Assembly (NCBI GenBank): GCA_019752015.1
Contig: JAIEMQ010000064.1
Coordinates: forward strand, 1-43,512
Source: Cyanobacteriota bacterium
Lineage (GTDB): Bacteria; Acidobacteriota; Vicinamibacteria; Vicinamibacterales; UBA2999
Direction of reading: 5' to 3'
DNA: 43,512 nt
The notes beneath the pieces were generated by a model. It saw only the letters and a program-made list of their open reading frames with translations, had not been told where the DNA came from and made no database searches. Positions 2,347-12,211 of this stretch are shown here, piece by piece (the first letter of the stretch is position 1; the number at the start of each line of letters is the position of its first letter). Position numbers and translations under genes: made by a program.

Positions 2347-2769
2347 GTGGCTGAGCTGAAAACGAAAGCAACCAGGGCGAGCGTTGCACAGTTCATTGCC
2401 GGGATCGACGACGATCAACGCCGAGGTGACTGCAAAACGCTCGTGGCGATGATGACCAAAGCGACGAAAACGAAGCCCGTGATGTGGGGGCCCGCGATCG
2501 TCGGGTTCGGCGCTCGCGATTTTCACGGCGCCAGCGGCGGGTCGACCAGGTGGTTCGAGGTCGGCTTCTCGCCGCGCAAGGCGGCGCTGTCGCTGTACTT
2601 GATGGGCGGCAAGGACAAGAGTCTGCTCGCGAAGCTCGTCAAGGCAAAGACCGGCGGCACGTCGATGGGCGCCGGGTGTGTCTACATCAAGCGGCTCGAG
2701 GACGTCGACAAGCCGACGCTGCAGAAACTGATCGACACGTCGGTGAAGCAGCTGCGCGCGAAGAAGTGA
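2347..2769 (+). CDS. DUF1801 domain protein
   Basis: A 140-residue cytoplasmic protein starting at GTG. The sequence MAELKTKAT..SVAQFIAGIDDDQRRGDCKTLVAMM, the motif MWGPAIVGFG, the segment FEVGFSPRKAALSLYL and the C-terminal YIKRLEDVD...L are typical of the small DUF1801/YdhG-like family. Family members share an iron-chaperone-like fold, but their role is not established. It is divergently transcribed from the secreted protein at 669-2282. A TAAAAT box at about 2333-2338 could be the -10 of its promoter. It is convergent with the selenoprotein gene, separated by a hairpin-forming repeat. Confidence 0.8.
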   Translation: MAELKTKATRASVAQFIAGIDDDQRRGDCKTLVAMMTKATKTKPVMWGPAIVGFGARDFHGASGGSTRWFEVGFSPRKAALSLYLMGGKDKSLLAKLVKAKTGGTSMGAGCVYIKRLEDVDKPTLQKLIDTSVKQLRAKK

Positions 2770-2771
2770 CC

Positions 2772-2826
2772 GCGGACAGGCGGACAGGAATCAATTCCTG
2801 CCTGCCTGTCTGCCTGTCTGGCCTGT
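2772..2826. terminator. inverted short-repeat hairpin between convergent genes
   Basis: Two copies of gcggacag are followed by a CAGGAA/TTCCTG stem with loop TCAA, and then by two copies of cctgtctg plus a third degenerate copy. The left and right period-8 arrays are largely complementary, so the spacer can fold into one long hairpin serving both converging genes. There is no U-run on either side, so factor-independent termination is only a suggestion. Confidence 0.45.
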
Positions 2827-2827
2827 C

Positions 2828-3376
2828 TTACTTCCGCTTCGCGACGCCCAGCTCGCCGAGCTTCGCGACCATGTCCGGACCCGACGACGCCGGCTTCACG
2901 GCGTTGTCGATGTGGAGGATCTTTCCATCGGGTCCGATGTAGAACGTCCATCGCCGCGCGAATCCGGCGGGCGACAGCACGCCGTACTTGGTGGCGATGT
3001 CCTTCGACACGTCGCTGAGGATGGGATAGTCCGCTTCGTGCATCTCGGCGAACTTCTTGTTGTCCTCGGGGGTGTCGACACTAATCATGTAGTACGCGAC
3101 GTTGTACTGCCGAATCAGATCGCCGCTCTCACGGAGCGACTTGCACTCGGCCGTTCAACCAGCGGTGAACGCCTTCGGGAACCACGCGAGCACCACGGCC
3201 CGCTTGCCGCGCGACTCCGCCAGCGTGTGGGTCTTGCCATCCGATCCCGGCGCCGAGAACGCGGGGGCCATGTCACCAACCTTCAATTCCACGGCGGGTG
3301 CCTGGGCCATCGCGCCCGTCGTTACCAGGCTCAACGCCGCTCCGAGAGCGACCTTGAGGTACGACTTCATGCGCAT
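2828..3376 (-). CDS. exported peroxiredoxin (BCP/PrxQ-like), predicted selenoprotein with in-frame UGA
   Basis: One gene split by a single TGA (3155-3157) into two apparently unrelated frames. Read through, it gives 182 residues: a signal peptide (MRMKSYLKVALGAALS..AMAQA), then an AhpC/TSA thioredoxin fold with KVGDMAPAF and WFPKAFTAG-U-TAEC. The family motif P-x3-T-x2-C is intact except that the peroxidatic cysteine, residue 74, is the UGA. A second cysteine four residues later (C78) makes a UxxxC pair, the PrxQ-type resolving arrangement. The frame continues through ISVDTPEDNKKFAE, RWTFYIGPDGKI and a Lys-rich end without further stops. The start at 3376 has GGAGG eight bases upstream. It would reduce peroxides in the periplasm. 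A SECIS-like hairpin follows the UGA. A sequencing error or a pseudogene is the alternative. Confidence 0.85.
3123..3139 (-). promoter_or_regulatory. candidate bacterial SECIS hairpin
   Basis: Reading the minus strand, 15 bases after the UGA a 6-bp stem TCGCTC/GAGCGG (one G-U pair) closes a 5-base loop CGTGA, so the loop begins 21 bases after the UGA. Known bacterial SECIS elements sit within the coding region, with the apical loop about 16-37 bases downstream of UGA and a G among the first two loop bases. This hairpin meets both conditions. I judged folding by eye only. Confidence 0.65.
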
Positions 3377-3475
3377 CAGCTGATCCTCCACCGCGAAATG
3401 GTATCCCAATTGCACCTTGGAAGGCGTGCGTGTAGCTCGGCGTTATCGGCGCGGTTCGCAGCCTAGAATCGAATT

Positions 3476-6400
3476 GTGAGGGTCAGGATTCGGCGGGCGT
3501 TGATCATCCTGGCGGCGGTGGCCGCAGGGCTGATTCTGGCCGTCCTCGCCGCGGTGCACACGCCGATGGCGCGCAGCCGCGCCATGGCCTGGGCGTCGAA
3601 CTTCCTGACCCGCTACAACCTCGAACTCGAGACGGGAAATCTCAGCTACAACGCGTTCACCCGCCGCATTACGCTCACCGACGTGCGCCTCGCGGCGGAA
3701 GGGCACAAAGAGCGTCCCTTCCTCGTCGCCAACCGCATCGAGGTGCGGCTCCCCTGGAGCGTGTTCCGCGCGCGCTTCGCGATTGATCGCGTGGTGATCG
3801 ACAACGGCATCGTCGACATCCTTCGCGACGAAAACGGCGTCGTCAATCTGCCGCCGTCGTCCGGTGCGCCGACGCCCGAACGCGCGCGCGAGCTGGACAT
3901 TCGATCGCTCATGTTGAACGGCCTCGACGTGCAGTACGAGGACCAGGTCCGCAACTGGGGCGTGAAAGTTCCGCGCATTGAATCTGAGCTGCTCAACACC
4001 ACGCTCGGCGCGAAGGGCAACTTCACGGTCCGTGGCAACCTCGAATTCCGCCTGCGCGATCGCAAGATGACCATGTCGCCGTTCGAGACGGTGATGACGT
4101 TCGACGGCTCGAATGTCGTTCTCGAGCAGGCGCGGTTGTCCTCGTCGGAAATCGAGGCGTTCCTGAGCGGCAGCATCAGGCGCGTGCTCGATTCGCCCTC
4201 GCTGGACCTCGCGCTGAAGGGCAGCGTCAACATCGACAAGGCGATCCAGTGGGTGCCGCCGCCGCCGCTGCCGATCAGCGGCATGGCGACGATCGAAGGC
4301 GTCATCAAAGGCGCGGCGCGCGACTTCGCCACCGAGCTGCAGGTGAACAGCAACACGATCGACGCCGGACGCGAGCGCGATCTCACCGTCAGCGGTCCCG
4401 TGAAGGTGACGTTCGCGGCGTTCTCCGGCGACGGCCTGACGATCAAACCGCAGTCCGGCGGATCGATCCGCGCCGCGTTCAACGTGCCATGGGGCACGGG
4501 CGCGGTCAGCACCGCTCGCGCGGAATGGAGCGGCGTTGATTCACAAGCCGTATTGCGGATGGCCGACGTCGATCCGCAGGCAATCAGCGCGACGTTCGAA
4601 GGCAACGGCACGTTCGAGCTCGGCGAGCCGCGCAAGTTCGTGATTCACAATCGCGAGCGCGGCTACGCGCGCTCCGGCGCGGTGTCGATGACCGGCACGA
4701 TCGACGCGACCATCGTCGGCGATGACTATCGCCTCGATCACGACAACAGCTTCCCGGGCTTCCGCCTCGAAGGCAGGATGAACGGCGTTATCAAGCGCGG
4801 CGCCGCGACGCTCAGCACCATGAACGGCCGCGCGCAGGCGCACGTCACGGACGTTGCGACGGCGGCGCGCAGTGCGGCCACGCTTGGCTTGCCGATCGCC
4901 GGCATCGTGCTCGACGTGCGCGGCGGTCTCGACGCGACGATGACGCTCGGCGGGTCGTATCGCTATCCCGAGATCGAGACGGCGATCGCGGGCGACGCCC
5001 TCGACCTGCCGCGGCTCGGCCGCGTCGCGGCGTCGGCATCCGTGACCGCCGATCCAAAAACCGCGATCATCTCGGACATCAACATCAGGCGCGGCACGTC
5101 GGCGATCACCGGCGACGTCGTCGCGAACATCACGAACCGCACCTGGAGCGGCAAGCTCCAGGTTGATGCGCCGAACGCCGAGGAGTTGCAGGCCGATGTT
5201 CCGGCAGCCTGGCGCGTGGCCGGCCGGGTGACCGCCGATGCGGATCTCGGCGGCACCTTCGACAGCTTCCGGCTCGACACCGTGATCAACGGCAACACGC
5301 TGGTGTGGGCGGGCCAGTCGATCGATCGCGCCACCGCGAAAGCCGTCGTCACCGCGGAGGCGATCGACGTCTCGACGCTGGAACTGCACCAGGGTGCGGG
5401 CTTCCTCGGCGGCCGGGTCCGTTACGCGTGGCAGACCGGAGCATACGATGCCAGCCTGAAAGGCGATCGCCTGTCGTGGATCGGCACCGTGCTGACGGAG
5501 AACGAGACGCAGGCGCTGTTCTCGGTTCAATTCGACGGCGCCGGCACCGTCGCGCACCCGCAAGGACACGCGACGCTTGATTTCGCGCTGACCGGCGGCA
5601 AGGCGGGCGCGTTCATCGGCGCCGGTGATGCCACCGCGGATCTGCTCGGCGACCAGGCCCGCATCGTAGCGCGGCTGCCGTCGATCGGCGCGCGCGTCAA
5701 TGCGGACATCGCAACCGCCTCGCCCTACGACTATCGCCTCAACGCGCAGCTCGATCGCTTCGAGCTGGCGCGCCTGTCGCCGTTCATGGGCGCGATCGAA
5801 ACCGAGGTCCTCGGCTTCGCGAACGGCACGATCACGGCGTCGGGCCGTCTCGCCGACGCGCGCGATCGCGTCGCCTTCGTCAACATCACCGAGCTCGATG
5901 CCGGCATCGGCGGCGTCCCGGTCTCCTTGCTCTCGCCGCTCAACGCGGAGCTGCGCGGTGACGATGTGACGCTGAAGGATTTGTTCGTGCGCATCGGCTC
6001 AGGACGGTTGAGCGCATCGGGCCGGTGGAACACGAAGCTCGATGGCAATTTCCAGGCGCAGTACATCGGTGATCTGCAGGACGCAGTGCGGCTGGGCAAG
6101 GCGTTCGGCGTGCCGTACATCCTCGACGGCAGCGGCCCGATGCAATTCAACCTGCGCAGTAACGGCAGCCGCCCGGGTACCGTCGGCACGCTGGCGATCA
6201 ACAACGGCAGCTTCGGCTGGATCGGGGCACCGGGCGCGGTGCAGAACTTGAATGTCAACGCCGCGCTCAATGGAGAGCAGCTCACGATCGAGCGTCTCAC
6301 CGGCGACGTCGTGACCGGCGGCGTTGTCGGCAGTTTCTCGGGCAAGGGCGCGGCGAAAGTACCGCAGCTGACGGTCGCAGCGGTCGATGGCGCCCTCGTG

Positions 6401-9400
6401 CTCGACTCCGCGAGGTTCACGTTTTCCGGCATCCCGGTCCAGCAGCAGCGTCCGTCGCGCTTTGATTTTTCGAAGGGCAGCATCACGATCGGCGACGCAA
6501 CGTGGCTGGTGGCGGAGAATCCGGTCACGTTCGGCGGAGCGGTCGGAGTCGCCGCGGCAGATCCGCCGCTCAATCTGTCCGTCAAGGGGTCGATCGATCT
6601 GCGCATCCTGTCGGCGCTGACGAGCGCGGTCGCATTCGACGGCAGCGCCGACGTCAACACGCGCATCGCAGGCACGGTCGCGAAGCCGCTCTTCGACGGA
6701 CGGATCACGCTCGACGGCGCCGAGATTGCCGTCAACGAACCGCGCCTGTTGCTGTCGGAGCTGACCGGCCCGATCGTGCTCGATGGGTCGCTCGCGGTGT
6801 TCGACGGCGTGCGCGGCCTCGCCAATGGCGGCGCGCTGACGCTGGATGGCTCGCTGGAATTCAGCGCGCTGGCCTTGAGCGGCGGCGAGCTCAGCATCCA
6901 GGCGCAGGGCGTCGCGATCGAATTGCCGAAGGGCCTGCGCAGCGAGCTCGACGCGCTCGTGACGTTGCGGCCCGATCCGCACAGTCCGTCACTGACCGGC
7001 GATGTCCGTGTGGTGCAGAGCGCGTACACGGAAACCATCACGATTGCCGCGTTCGCGCGGCAGGCGGCGTTGCCGGTCATCGCGCCGACGGCTGAGCGCC
7101 CGTATCTCGAACGGCTGCGGCTCGATCTCTCCGTCACCACGACGGCGGATCTGATTGTCGATAATAACTACGGACGTCTCGCGGCCGGTGTCGATGTGCG
7201 GGTGCTCGGCACCGCCGTCCGGCCCGGCGTCGACGGGCGAATCGTCCTGCGCGAGGGCGGTCAGATCTTCCTGGCCGGGCGCACCTTCCGCATCACTCGC
7301 GGCGATATCTTCTTCACTGACCGCCGGACAATCCGGCCCGAATTCAACATCGCCGCGACGGCCAACCTCGGGACCGGACGCACCGGCAACGTCACGATGA
7401 CCCTGACCGGCACGATGCAACGCCCGGCGATCGATCTGCGATCGGAAGAAGGATCGCGCACCCCCGGCGAAATTGCCGCCCAGTTGGTGGGCTCCACCAA
7501 CGCCGAGACGGCGTTGACGTTGTTGTCGGCGGATCTGCTCGGCGTCACCGGCCGCGCCATCGGCCTGGACGCCTTTCGCGTCGAGCGCGGCGCGCTCCTC
7601 GATCGCGACTTCCGCAATTACCAGGAAGACCCGACGCTGATCGGCAATACCACCGACCCGACGACGCGGTTGACGATCGGCAAGCGGCTCAGCGACAACG
7701 TCGAGTTCACCGTGTCGCAGAACCTGCGGGAAAACGGCAAGGCGACGTTCGTGATCAGCTACTTCCCGCGGCGCAATATCGAGTTGCGCGCGTTGTCGCG
7801 CGACAGCGGCACGGTCAGCCTCGGCATCCGCCATCAGGTGACGTTCGGCGGCGGCGAGACCAGACCCCCCTCGGAGCGCAGGGCGAGGCCGATTGTCACC
7901 GCGATCGCCTTCAGCGGTGTCGATCCCGCAGTGGCATCCAGCGTCCGCGCCTTGATCAAGCTGAAGGAAGGCGGCGAATTCGATTTCCTCGACCTGCAGA
8001 AAGACGTCGATCGCATTCGCGAGGCCTTCCACGCGCAGGGCTTTTTCGAAGCGCGGATCCGCACCCGGCGCGGCGATGCCGGTAACGGCGACGTGACGGT
8101 CGAGTTCATTGTCAATCGAGGGCCGCGGACCATTTTGCAGTTCGAGGACTTCACGCCGCCGCCGGACCTCATCGAACAGCTCGAGGAGGCGTGGCGGCAA
8201 AACGTGTTCGATCAGTTCCTGGTCGACGATCTGACCCAGCGCGTCCGCCGTCATCTCGCCGGCTCCAACGATCTGGCGAGCGTCGTCGTCGGACGAATCG
8301 ATCGTCCGTCGCCCGACACCAAGCGCCTGCGGATCGAGGTGACGCCGGGCGCGCCGGTCACGCATCGCGAGATCCGGTTTGCCGGCAATCTGGAGATCGA
8401 CGCGAAGGCGCTCGAGGCCGAAGTCGTCGGCTCCGGGCTCGCGATCGAAGCGTGGCTCGATCGCACGGTCGTCGAAAAGGCGTTGACGCAGCTCTACAAC
8501 GAAGCCGGGTTCCTCAAGGCCGAAGTGACCGGCCGGCCGCTGACCATCGACGGCACGACCGGCGTGCTGTGGTTCGACATCAAGGAAGGCCCGCGCGCCC
8601 AGGTGACGAGCATCACGTGGGCCGGTGTCGCCGAATCGAGGCTGGCCGAAGTCGAGAAGGCCGCGGCGCTGCAAACGCCCGTACCCTACGTGACGGCCGG
8701 CATCAACGAGGCGCGGATTCGCATCGAGGAGCGCTACCGGCGCCAGGGATTCAACGACGCAGAAGTTGACACGCAGCCGGTGGTGGCCGCCGACGACACG
8801 GTGGCGTTGACGTTCAACGTCACCGAAGGCACGCAGCAGGTGCTGCAGGACGTCGAGATCACCGGCAACGAAGTGACCAAAGGCACGGTGCTGACGCAGG
8901 CGCTGCGATTCGAGCTCGGCAAGCCCGTCGATCTCGACGAGTGGACGCTGGCGAGGAAACGCCTCTACGACACCAACGTGTTCCGCCTCGTCGACATCCA
9001 GCCCGTCCCGCTCGGCGATCCGGTCGACGGCGTCCAGCCAGTGAAGGCGGCCGTCAGAGTCGAAGAGTATCCGGAGTGGTCGGTTCGCTACGGCTTCCAG
9101 CTGGAAGGGGAGCGGCGGGCGGCGCTCGGCGAGTTCACGAGCACGCGCAACGCCGGCGTCGTCGGTGAGATCCGCAACCCCAACCTGTTCGGCCGGGCGC
9201 TCACCGGCGGCGTGTTTGGCATGTATCAGCGCAACCGGCAGGACGCGTCGCTGTTCGTCGCGACCTCACGCTTGTTTGGCTGGCGGGCGCGATCGACCCT
9301 CTACGGGTTCTTTACGCGGGATCGCGTGCTCGACGGGGCAGGCATCAATACCGTCGCGATTTCGAAGATCGAAGGCATCAGCGCCGATCAACGCTGGCGC

Positions 9401-10087
9401 GCGAAAGGTTTTCAGATCGTCTACGGCTACCGCTTCGAGCGCAATTACACGGTCAACCCGCAGACCGCCGGCGATATCATCCCCCTCGATGCCGTCGTCA
9501 ACATCGCGAAGCTGAGCCAGGCGCTCGTCTGGGATCGCCGCGACGATCCGCTCAGCTCGCGCAAGGGCACGTTCAGCTCGGTGTCGTTCGATCAATCGGC
9601 GCTGTTTCTCGGCTCCGACAGACGCAACCGCAAGCTGCTGGTGCAGCAGTTCCTGTTCGTGCCGCTGGGCAGGCTGGTGCTCGCATCACGGGTGCTGGCC
9701 GGCTTCGCATTCGGCCGCGACAACCTGGCGTTTACCGATCGTTTCCGCGCCGGCGGCGCGACGAGCGTGCGCGGCTACGGCGAAGAAAGCCTCGGACCGC
9801 GCGACGCGACCGGCCTGCCGAGCGGCGGCGATCGGCTGCTGATCCTGAACCAGGAAGCGCGCTTCCCGATCTACCGATGGTTCAATGGTGTCGCGTTCGT
9901 CGACGCCGGCAACATCGAGCGGCGGGGCGATGCCTGGAGCGGACTGAAACTCGGTTACGGCGTTGGATTGCGGCTCGACACTCCGGTGGGATTGCTCCGC
10001 GGCGACATCGGCTTTCCGCAGACCCCAATTTCAACGAGCCGAAGCAACACCGTCCGGTATTACTTCGGCTTCGGCCACATCTTCTAA
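3476..10087 (+). CDS. TamB-like protein fused to POTRA domains and an Omp85 (BamA/TamA) barrel
   Basis: A 2203-residue protein from GTG 3476. Residues about 8-30 form an uncleaved signal anchor. Residues about 35-1250 are AsmA/TamB-type repetitive beta structure. Residues about 1180-1400 match the TamB C-terminal (DUF490) domain, with GQIFLAGRTFRITRGDIFF and LTLLSADLLGVTGRAIGLD. Around residue 1460 the sequence passes without a break into POTRA-like repeats (IAFSGVDPAVASSV, IRFAGNLEIDAKAL, VEITGNEVTKGTVLTQALRF). From about 1850 to the end there is an Omp85 16-strand barrel with the VRGYG motif at 2098-2102 and a terminal phenylalanine. TamA and TamB are normally separate outer- and inner-membrane proteins that insert outer-membrane proteins or move lipids. 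Here one chain could span the whole periplasm. It is divergent from the selenoprotein gene. Confidence 0.9.
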   Translation: MRVRIRRALIILAAVAAGLILAVLAAVHTPMARSRAMAWASNFLTRYNLELETGNLSYNAFTRRITLTDVRLAAEGHKERPFLVANRIEVRLPWSVFRARFAIDRVVIDNGIVDILRDENGVVNLPPSSGAPTPERARELDIRSLMLNGLDVQYEDQVRNWGVKVPRIESELLNTTLGAKGNFTVRGNLEFRLRDRKMTMSPFETVMTFDGSNVVLEQARLSSSEIEAFLSGSIRRVLDSPSLDLALKGSVNIDKAIQWVPPPPLPISGMATIEGVIKGAARDFATELQVNSNTIDAGRERDLTVSGPVKVTFAAFSGDGLTIKPQSGGSIRAAFNVPWGTGAVSTARAEWSGVDSQAVLRMADVDPQAISATFEGNGTFELGEPRKFVIHNRERGYARSGAVSMTGTIDATIVGDDYRLDHDNSFPGFRLEGRMNGVIKRGAATLSTMNGRAQAHVTDVATAARSAATLGLPIAGIVLDVRGGLDATMTLGGSYRYPEIETAIAGDALDLPRLGRVAASASVTADPKTAIISDINIRRGTSAITGDVVANITNRTWSGKLQVDAPNAEELQADVPAAWRVAGRVTADADLGGTFDSFRLDTVINGNTLVWAGQSIDRATAKAVVTAEAIDVSTLELHQGAGFLGGRVRYAWQTGAYDASLKGDRLSWIGTVLTENETQALFSVQFDGAGTVAHPQGHATLDFALTGGKAGAFIGAGDATADLLGDQARIVARLPSIGARVNADIATASPYDYRLNAQLDRFELARLSPFMGAIETEVLGFANGTITASGRLADARDRVAFVNITELDAGIGGVPVSLLSPLNAELRGDDVTLKDLFVRIGSGRLSASGRWNTKLDGNFQAQYIGDLQDAVRLGKAFGVPYILDGSGPMQFNLRSNGSRPGTVGTLAINNGSFGWIGAPGAVQNLNVNAALNGEQLTIERLTGDVVTGGVVGSFSGKGAAKVPQLTVAAVDGALVLDSARFTFSGIPVQQQRPSRFDFSKGSITIGDATWLVAENPVTFGGAVGVAAADPPLNLSVKGSIDLRILSALTSAVAFDGSADVNTRIAGTVAKPLFDGRITLDGAEIAVNEPRLLLSELTGPIVLDGSLAVFDGVRGLANGGALTLDGSLEFSALALSGGELSIQAQGVAIELPKGLRSELDALVTLRPDPHSPSLTGDVRVVQSAYTETITIAAFARQAALPVIAPTAERPYLERLRLDLSVTTTADLIVDNNYGRLAAGVDVRVLGTAVRPGVDGRIVLREGGQIFLAGRTFRITRGDIFFTDRRTIRPEFNIAATANLGTGRTGNVTMTLTGTMQRPAIDLRSEEGSRTPGEIAAQLVGSTNAETALTLLSADLLGVTGRAIGLDAFRVERGALLDRDFRNYQEDPTLIGNTTDPTTRLTIGKRLSDNVEFTVSQNLRENGKATFVISYFPRRNIELRALSRDSGTVSLGIRHQVTFGGGETRPPSERRARPIVTAIAFSGVDPAVASSVRALIKLKEGGEFDFLDLQKDVDRIREAFHAQGFFEARIRTRRGDAGNGDVTVEFIVNRGPRTILQFEDFTPPPDLIEQLEEAWRQNVFDQFLVDDLTQRVRRHLAGSNDLASVVVGRIDRPSPDTKRLRIEVTPGAPVTHREIRFAGNLEIDAKALEAEVVGSGLAIEAWLDRTVVEKALTQLYNEAGFLKAEVTGRPLTIDGTTGVLWFDIKEGPRAQVTSITWAGVAESRLAEVEKAAALQTPVPYVTAGINEARIRIEERYRRQGFNDAEVDTQPVVAADDTVALTFNVTEGTQQVLQDVEITGNEVTKGTVLTQALRFELGKPVDLDEWTLARKRLYDTNVFRLVDIQPVPLGDPVDGVQPVKAAVRVEEYPEWSVRYGFQLEGERRAALGEFTSTRNAGVVGEIRNPNLFGRALTGGVFGMYQRNRQDASLFVATSRLFGWRARSTLYGFFTRDRVLDGAGINTVAISKIEGISADQRWRAKGFQIVYGYRFERNYTVNPQTAGDIIPLDAVVNIAKLSQALVWDRRDDPLSSRKGTFSSVSFDQSALFLGSDRRNRKLLVQQFLFVPLGRLVLASRVLAGFAFGRDNLAFTDRFRAGGATSVRGYGEESLGPRDATGLPSGGDRLLILNQEARFPIYRWFNGVAFVDAGNIERRGDAWSGLKLGYGVGLRLDTPVGLLRGDIGFPQTPISTSRSNTVRYYFGFGHIF

Positions 10088-10774: not shown

Positions 10775-12211
10775 ATGTCAGACCAAAAACTCAAGATTGC
10801 AGTATTCATCGATTTCGACAACATCGAGATCGGTGTCAAGACCACCCTCAACGCGCAGTTCGATATCGGCGCGGTCCTCGAAGCCATCAAGGAGCGCGGT
10901 GAAGTCGTCACCAAGCTCGCCTACGGCGACTGGAAGCGCTCCGGCGATCACGGCCGCGCCATGGCGCAGCACGCCGTGCGCATGGTGCAGCGCGTGATGA
11001 CGCCGGGCGGCGACAAGAACGGCGCCGACATCAACCTCGCCCTCGACGCGCTCGAGATGGCGTTCACGCACGCGCACATCAACGCGTTCGTGATCGTCGG
11101 CGGCGACAGCGACTTCATCACGCTCGTCGAGAAACTCAAACAGTACGACCGCAAGGTCTTCGTCGTCGGCGGTCGCGCCTTCACCAGCCAGGTGATGCAG
11201 AAGAACTGCACCGAGTTCATCGCCTACGAGAACGTGATCTCCGACCCGTCGGCAAGCTCAGCGTCGCCCCGCGCCGAGTCGAGAGGCGAGCGCGGCGGCG
11301 GCCGCCAGCCGAAACACGACAAAGGCCCGCGCCAGAAGAGCAACGGCACGCATTCGATCGAGCAGGCCGTGCCGCTCGTCAGGCGCGCGTTGAAAGTGCT
11401 CACCGATCGCGAGGTCTCGCCGCAGCTGGGACTGCTGAAGAGCACGCTGTTGCAACTCGACTCCTCGTTCTCAGAGCGCGATTACGGCGTCGGCTCGTTT
11501 CGCGAATTCGCCGACAAGCTCGCCGGCCAGGGACTCGTGGCGCTCAAGCACCAGGGACGCAGTACGCTCGTAGAACTCCCTGACGTCGACGGTTCCAATG
11601 GTTCCGGCGGTTCCAACGGTTCCAATGGCAAAGCACTCGAGGACACCGCTCCAGGTTCGAGTGCTCCTGAAAATCTCACCGAGCTTCTCGAGCAGCCGGA
11701 TTCGGTTCCGCAGCCCGATGCATCGCTCGGTGATGGCGTTGCGCTGGTTCGCCGCGTGCTCGCGGAAACCACCACGCAGCCGCGGTGGCCGATGTATCCG
11801 CGGCAATTCAAGCAGTTCCTCCGCAACGCGCACCCCGATTTCGACGAGCGCAAGTACGGATCGATCGCCGATCTGATGCGCGCGTGCCAGAAGGATGGCT
11901 TGCTCCGCCTCGAGCGCGATCGCCAGGGCGCGCTGCGCGTGTTCGCCGGCGGATCATCACGCCCGTCGGTGCCGCATGGATGGAGCGCCGGCACCCGCGA
12001 GAATGGATCCGATCAGGCGTCTGAGACTCCGCAGGTCGTGGAGGTGATCCCCGAAGTCATCGCCGCTCCGGTTGTCGATGCGCAGATCACCGAAGTCGTC
12101 GAAGAGACCGCGGCGCCCGCGCCGAAGGCAAAACGCGCGCGTGCGAAGAAGACCGCCGCGCCTGCGGGCGAGAAAAAGAAAGCTGCACCGCGAAAGAAGA
12201 AGACTGCATAA
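10775..12211 (+). CDS. NYN-domain nuclease-like protein with two OST-HTH/LOTUS domains
   Basis: A 478-residue cytoplasmic protein. Residues 5-150 form a NYN (PIN-like) domain with the acidic metal-binding residues FIDFDN (D13, D15), NGADINLALDAL and GGDSDF, as in LabA/Limkain-type RNases. Residues about 190-270 and about 315-400 are two LOTUS (OST-HTH) domains (FSERDYG..SFREFADKL and FDERKYGSIADLM), which bind RNA, notably G-rich RNA, in characterised cases. The linker between them contains a period-9 repeat that encodes GSN-type residues. The C-terminus is a Lys/Ala/Arg-rich tail likely to bind nucleic acid. An RNA-processing role is inferred. parE follows after 11 bases, so the two may be co-transcribed. 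Confidence 0.85.
   Translation: MSDQKLKIAVFIDFDNIEIGVKTTLNAQFDIGAVLEAIKERGEVVTKLAYGDWKRSGDHGRAMAQHAVRMVQRVMTPGGDKNGADINLALDALEMAFTHAHINAFVIVGGDSDFITLVEKLKQYDRKVFVVGGRAFTSQVMQKNCTEFIAYENVISDPSASSASPRAESRGERGGGRQPKHDKGPRQKSNGTHSIEQAVPLVRRALKVLTDREVSPQLGLLKSTLLQLDSSFSERDYGVGSFREFADKLAGQGLVALKHQGRSTLVELPDVDGSNGSGGSNGSNGKALEDTAPGSSAPENLTELLEQPDSVPQPDASLGDGVALVRRVLAETTTQPRWPMYPRQFKQFLRNAHPDFDERKYGSIADLMRACQKDGLLRLERDRQGALRVFAGGSSRPSVPHGWSAGTRENGSDQASETPQVVEVIPEVIAAPVVDAQITEVVEETAAPAPKAKRARAKKTAAPAGEKKKAAPRKKKTA
11592..11632. repeat. period-9 coding repeat (Gly-Ser-Asn linker)
   Basis: Four 9-bp units beginning ggttcc (ggttccaat, ggttccggc, ggttccaac, ggttccaat) lie between the two LOTUS domains of the NYN protein and encode GSN/GSG tripeptides. 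The units keep frame and differ only at the third triplet. Confidence 0.8.

Follow-up and report, generated by a model that had tools for sequence, protein, structure and literature searches.

Organization of the Locus

On the minus strand of the window (the whole 43,512-nt stretch of DNA that was analysed), we found a gene that very probably encodes a selenocysteine (Sec) peroxiredoxin. The features of the locus are as follows.

2828..3376, minus strand: predicted Sec-peroxiredoxin gene, 549 nt, 182 codons, with a single internal TGA and a TAA stop at 2828-2830
3385..3389, minus strand: putative GGAGG ribosome-binding site, 8 nt upstream of the ATG, read from the sequence
3305..3376, minus strand: predicted signal peptide, residues 1-24, with a cleavage-like site between AMA and Q and no lipobox, judged by eye
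3155..3178, minus strand: PxxxTxxU motif, residues 67-74, with P and T in 84 of 85 copies and A and T in one
3155..3157, minus strand: TGA, predicted Sec codon (U74), with TGA in 58 and a Cys codon in 27 of the 85 rows
3143..3145, minus strand: Cys78, a second Cys of catalytic type at +4, present in all 85 copies
3122..3140, minus strand: predicted bacterial SECIS hairpin of 7 bp with the 5-nt loop CGUGA, from pairing and covariation in TGA copies
2951..2953, minus strand: Arg142, the conserved arginine of the peroxiredoxin active site, the same in all 52 aligned sequences
3476..10087, plus strand: divergent neighbour of 2203 aa with TamB, POTRA and Omp85 matches (Pfam), context outside the selenoprotein

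The original prediction had joined two frames at one TGA, and a single frame of 182 codons was found between the same limits. The TGA had also been placed where a P-x3-T-x2-C motif has its catalytic Cys, with a further Cys four residues later, and this agrees with the active-site sequence P67-KAF-T71-AG-U74 followed by Cys78. Such joined frames were frequent in this GC-rich window: 117 TGA-interrupted frames had two long parts, and in 11 of them GC3 exceeded 0.75 in both parts (the peroxiredoxin gene is counted in both figures). Considering that joined frames and SECIS-like hairpins were both abundant by chance, frame and hairpin alone were unconvincing, and the comparison with relatives decides. 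In the first 14 comparisons, dN/dS was 0.09-0.30 downstream of the TGA and 0.04-0.30 upstream of it; the downstream values indicate that the part behind the TGA has been selected as protein.

No promoter or terminator was found by a scan of positions 2700-3600 on both strands, and a scan of the window against Rfam at gathering scores gave no match. The 2203-aa neighbour holds both partners of a translocation and assembly module in one chain (TamB, POTRA repeats and an Omp85 barrel). Farther along the window (10775-12211, plus strand), a NYN domain and an OST-HTH/LOTUS stretch were found in a predicted RNA-handling protein.

Family, Fold, and Active Site

The protein matched PF00578 (AhpC/TSA) with 105.2 bits (E 2.8e-30, cut-off 26), and AhpC-TSA and Redoxin were its only Pfam matches. 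The best NCBIfam match was the BCP model NF006960, with 74.3 bits against a cut-off of 140, while the PrxU model NF040737, which we take to stand for the Eubacterium acidaminophilum enzyme, gave 40.3 bits against a cut-off of 270. Since both cut-offs were missed, the protein was filed as an AhpC/TSA peroxiredoxin nearest to PrxQ/BCP and outside both curated families. The earlier description of it as PrxQ/BCP-like thus held for the general likeness, but not for full membership of BCP: the score is too low, and the second Cys lies at +4 instead of +5.

The structure model had a mean pLDDT of 90.8, with low confidence for residues 1-30, and its helix 72-83 bears both U74 and C78. The best solved match was Bcp1 of Sulfolobus (E 8.6e-16; Z 22.9, rmsd 2.0, 149 residues aligned), and the 1-Cys peroxiredoxin AhpE tied with it (Z 22.9 over 148 residues, 30% identity). 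Arg142 was assessed in an alignment of 52 sequences, which drew on 51 of the 84 locus copies. Fold, Pxxx(T/S)xxC motif with Sec for Cys, and active-site Arg together place the predicted protein in the peroxiredoxin superfamily, as judged from sequence and model.

The spacing of the second Cys was unusual. All 85 copies had it at +4, the following position being K, N, R, H, Q, T or I, and neither spacing of the resolving Cys in PrxQ/BCP (+5, or about 38 residues on) was found in the gene. Three solved sequences were compared, and both of those with two Cys showed the +5 spacing; no solved peroxiredoxin with a resolving Cys at +4 was seen. The nearest other relative in the parent genome (30% identity) also had +5, in PGCTRESC. 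Nor was the CxxC/UxxC pattern of TlpA/ResA found, Thr71 standing three positions before U74 in 85 of 85 copies.

Codon 74 in Relatives

The best 80 of 412 loci with relatives were fetched for comparison. The four best relatives, which come from different MAG records and share 87, 82, 83 and 80% identity with the gene, have TGA too. At E 1e-5, codon 74 could be aligned in 86 places and was TGA in 57, TGC in 26 and TGT in 3, with no other codon. Two copies (L053 at 2495 and L071 at 2484) were distant paralogues and were dropped at E 1e-15; the window with 84 copies gave 85 rows, 58 with TGA and 27 with Cys. The alternation of TGA with TGC or TGT for which the original prediction had called was therefore seen, and the in-frame UGA is aligned with the Cys of homologues, as in a predicted selenoprotein.

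Sec and Cys copies adjoin in the same locus in L011 and L025. Tandem Sec-peroxiredoxin copies occur in L045 (3001 and 3793) and L051 (3001 and 3902), and all four have an altered SECIS stem core, TCATTC/GAATGG. In L053, a Verrucomicrobiales MAG, a second redoxin-like frame (2495-2836) adjoins the Sec-peroxiredoxin and carries an in-frame TGA in W-TGA-P-F-C; perhaps it is a UxxC selenoprotein neighbour.

The SECIS Hairpin

A stem-loop that satisfies bacterial SECIS rules had been predicted 21 bases downstream of the TGA. A hairpin was found there, with 14 nt from the TGA to the stem and 21 nt to the loop, but the rule itself (a stem of 7 bp or more, a folding energy of -7.5 kcal/mol or lower, and G at loop position 1 or 2) was weak evidence on its own: on both strands of the window, 138 of 1221 TGAs had a qualifying hairpin downstream. 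Single-sequence SECIS rules were rejected as evidence on this ground, being too permissive. The 42-nt fold was no better than shuffles (z 0.07), and the 25-nt fold was better (z -2.36).

The copies with TGA and those with Cys differed clearly. In the 58 TGA copies, of which 56 are distinct, pairing was seen in 98.2% of 392 cells, and 21 cells had both sides changed; the covariation score was 0.183, against 0.006-0.081 for versions with a slid partner. Paired share, both-sides cell count and covariation score in the TGA copies were each reached by 0 of 500 shuffles. In the 27 Cys copies, only 63.5% of cells were paired, no better than in shuffles. The full 7-bp stem was present in 53 of 58 TGA copies versus 0 of 27 Cys copies, the median 24-nt folding energy was -11.0 versus -5.9, and G stood at loop position 2 in all 58 TGA copies. 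Two further measures were not above chance: pairs changed on both sides numbered 3 of 7, which 75 of 500 shuffles reached, and further pair types numbered 5, which 318 of 500 reached. This is because the compensatory changes lie in only three of the seven pairs and are common to related copies.

Part of the stem contrast lies at the peptide level, since the residues around the hairpin are LRESG in Sec copies versus LAENG in many Cys copies. When the local peptide was recoded synonymously, the same 7-bp stem arose in 605 of 20,000 recodings, and the observed 24-nt energy was reached in 456 of 5000. It is the contrast with the Cys copies and the covariation that carry the evidence. By these comparative measures the stem-loop behaves as a SECIS element, and its place just past the UGA and its small loop with G are those of a putative selenoprotein gene.

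Selenocysteine Machinery in the Parent Genome and the Class

The absence of selB and tRNA-Sec from a complete genome had been named as a refutation of the prediction. The parent genome (5.9 Mb, with a listed completeness of 100%) has both, namely selB (341.9 bits, a 672-codon frame) and a tRNA-SeC with anticodon tca, and also selA (541.1 bits) and selD (353.3 bits). By its gene matches, this genome has the selA, selB, selD and tRNA-Sec set expected of a predicted bacterial selenoprotein producer. SelD of the same genome (L119, C19:36115-37035) is itself a predicted selenoprotein, with one in-frame TGA in CAG-U-ASK.

The class was surveyed in 149 genomes, an even sample of a larger group in which each genome chosen was at least 85% complete. 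A single TGA within a match was read as codon 74, and no stop as a Cys copy; this reading was verified in seven copies. In these seven matches a second stop (TAG or TAA) inside the match was considered and dismissed as the natural gene end, 104-107 codons past codon 74; in the fetched copies codon 74 was TGA in 7 of 7, and the 80 upstream codons were free of other stops. At E 1e-40, 116 of the 149 genomes had a relative, including 90 in which one or more copies had TGA and 26 with stop-free copies only.

The gene selA was present in 85 of 90 TGA genomes versus 13 of 26 Cys-only genomes (Fisher p 8.6e-7, the genomes not being independent). All five TGA genomes without selA had selB over the cut-off, so that selA or selB was found in 90 of 90; their best tRNA-Sec match was called tRNA-SeC by ARAGORN in three and tRNA-Ser in two. 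Among the 13 Cys-only genomes without selA, one had selB over the cut-off; a match to the selB model at E 1e-40 occurred in 8 of the 13, and the 7 of these under the cut-off were not counted. The remaining 33 genomes had no copy of the peroxiredoxin at all, and 22 of them had selA, which indicates that the Sec machinery serves other genes too.

Predicted Export

The N-terminus consists of MRMK, a hydrophobic stretch and the AMA-Q junction. A hydrophobic N-terminus (11-residue mean of at least 1.5) was found in 84 of 85 copies, L068 being the exception; starts were chosen partly by hydrophobicity, so this count leans towards export. The predicted signal peptide strongly suggests that the protein would be exported to the cell envelope. 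Exported selenoproteins are not new as such, as periplasmic formate dehydrogenase and NiFeSe hydrogenase illustrate.

Distribution, Evolution, and Gene Neighbourhood

An exported Sec-peroxiredoxin in this lineage had been thought worth remark. The survey showed that it is not rare there, since a TGA form was present in 90 of the 149 genomes surveyed. The record titles of relatives were mostly of Acidobacteriota; TGA copies also occurred in MAGs titled Verrucomicrobiales and Gemmatales, and Cys copies in MAGs titled Planctomycetota and Gammaproteobacteria. No relative was confirmed in viral contigs. The plasmid matches comprised 263 records, all below 60% identity, and the best eight listed had about 32%.

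A tree built without the columns of the trait itself gave six Sec/Cys changes (bootstrap 5-6), of which the starred, best-supported branches force only one.

The 80 relative loci were searched with the two neighbouring genes as queries. The TamB-Omp85 gene lay in divergent orientation to the peroxiredoxin in 18 of them (L002-L013, L015, L016, L018, L022, L037 and L052), and the DUF1801 neighbour had no match. The peroxiredoxin copy nearest to the TamB-Omp85 gene was the Cys form in L037 and L011. Most of these 18 loci are nearest relatives, and shared descent may therefore explain the pairing.

Interpretation and Alternative Readings

By comparison we established an in-frame UGA at the Cys position, a SECIS element, the Sec machinery, the peroxiredoxin fold and the active-site residues. 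It is highly likely that the gene encodes an exported Sec-peroxiredoxin, a judgement that leaves aside the later catalytic steps. SelB would bind the hairpin at 3122-3140 and bring Sec-tRNA to UGA codon 74, and translation would run on to the TAA. The signal peptide would direct secretion, and the protein would act in the cell envelope. There the selenol of U74, activated by T71 and R142, would reduce hydrogen or organic peroxides and become a selenenic acid; the peroxidase activity of the Sec protein is inferred. Cys78, one helical turn off, would then form an intramolecular selenenylsulfide with U74, and a periplasmic thiol pathway would re-reduce it. Resolution by Cys78 appears somewhat more probable than its opposite. 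The electrons might plausibly come from a DsbD-like protein of the same genome, a tentative assignment to which we give rather less than even weight. The corresponding open frame (594 aa, 126.6 bits) has, by eye, an N-terminal domain, a membrane part and a thioredoxin-like end with WCKNC.

The alternative that survives best accepts Sec insertion and differs on what follows. In a 1-Cys type of enzyme, an outside thiol would reduce the selenenic acid directly, and Cys78 would be structural or protective. The tie of BCP and 1-Cys AhpE on the fold (Z 22.9 each) agrees with this, as would the geometry, residues at i and i+4 within one helix probably being an unusual resolving pair; moreover, most prokaryotic BCPs lack a resolving Cys according to the part of PMC8945050 that treats them. 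However, Cys78 was kept in 85 of 85 copies, whether the form was Sec or Cys, and this points to a catalytic need common to both. We regard the 1-Cys course as fairly unlikely.

Sec insertion is also compatible with an exported UxxxC protein that is mainly a Sco-like thiol-disulfide exchanger or metal binder with no peroxidase activity. The location would suit it, and CxxxC is the spacing of Sco1 in a thioredoxin fold, as described in the section of PMC2757866 on that protein. The same source, as far as it covers the fold, puts the CxxxC of Sco earlier, with the first Cys in a loop before the helix, whereas here the first catalytic residue is already the one in the helix and PxxxT stands ahead of it in 84 of 85 copies. 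R142, a peroxiredoxin signature, was invariant in 52 of 52 sequences, and the Pfam matches were limited to AhpC-TSA and Redoxin. Such a function is improbable.

That the TGA is a true stop, in a pseudogene, through an assembly error or with a 73-residue product, might be thought because chance joining of frames is frequent in the window and the protein itself is known from sequence alone. Against it stand the TGA in 58 of 85 copies from different MAG records, purifying selection downstream, the conserved SECIS and the presence of the Sec machinery, and we consider it very improbable. Reading of the TGA as another residue through an altered code or a suppressor tRNA, under any of which the frame would be open, is hardly credible: all 27 rows of TGA-free homologues had Cys rather than Trp, the genome has a tRNA-Sec whose anticodon is tca, and the link with selA and selB would be left unexplained. 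Sequencing error, pseudogene and altered code were thus all rejected on the recurrence of the TGA, the selection and the Sec machinery.

Returning to the exported Sec-peroxiredoxin, one may speculate further that these proteins form a separate old branch of exported UxxxC/CxxxC envelope peroxidases, with a selenenylsulfide formed inside a single helical turn, a Sec form widely kept in Acidobacteriota and, in the home genus, a tie to outer-membrane protein assembly through TamB-Omp85. We think this wider picture unlikely to hold as a whole. No description of the one-helical-turn selenenylsulfide geometry was found for PrxQ.

As the count of 90 of 149 genomes suggests, an exported Sec-peroxidase may be common equipment of a large class known mostly from MAGs. 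Gene callers that treat TGA as a stop would truncate such genes. The several Sec/Cys changes and the Sec and Cys homologues lying side by side would make these genes a natural test set for the benefit of selenium outside the cytoplasm, and the second Cys at +4 poses a testable question on resolving geometry.

Comparison with Known Systems

TxxU Sec-peroxiredoxins are an established selenoprotein family, as the relevant parts of five papers indicate (PMC1088965, PMC1794560, PMC5029168, PMC9312934, PMC13188914). Sec-containing peroxiredoxins stand in the review tables of PMC9312934 and PMC13188914; 43 Sargasso Sea sequences appear in the counts of PMC1088965, and 91 in 78 organisms in those of PMC5029168. 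For Acidobacteria in 2006, the corresponding figures of PMC1794560 were four selenoproteins in three families. Among the matches listed from the open-licence literature, no paper naming an Acidobacteriota Sec-peroxiredoxin that is exported or has UxxxC was found, which is a weak form of absence. The TxxU family being already known, the finding, itself well supported, adds as its new parts the wide occurrence in one class and the unusual spacing of the second Cys.

The gene resembles the TxxU family (COG1225 Bcp, including PrxU of Eubacterium acidaminophilum) in having Sec at the peroxidatic position of PxxxTxxU and a SECIS just past the UGA. It differs from PrxU in lying below the NF040737 cut-off, and may differ from the earlier TxxU sequences in that the present branch is predicted to be exported and has UxxxC. 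With PrxQ/BCP it shares fold and active site. The second Cys of BCPs follows after four residues (+5) or about 38 residues, or is absent, in the account given in a part of PMC8945050; in the present protein three residues separate U74 from C78, which puts it at +4. The likeness to AhpE is one of fold, and the present protein differs in its Sec for Cys, its conserved Cys78 and its predicted signal peptide. Finally, the Prx-like thiol:disulfide oxidoreductase selenoproteins (UxxC/UxxU) are likewise PF00578 selenoproteins, according to the entries for them in PMC13188914, but the Sec predicted here is the second position of TxxU, not the first of UxxC.
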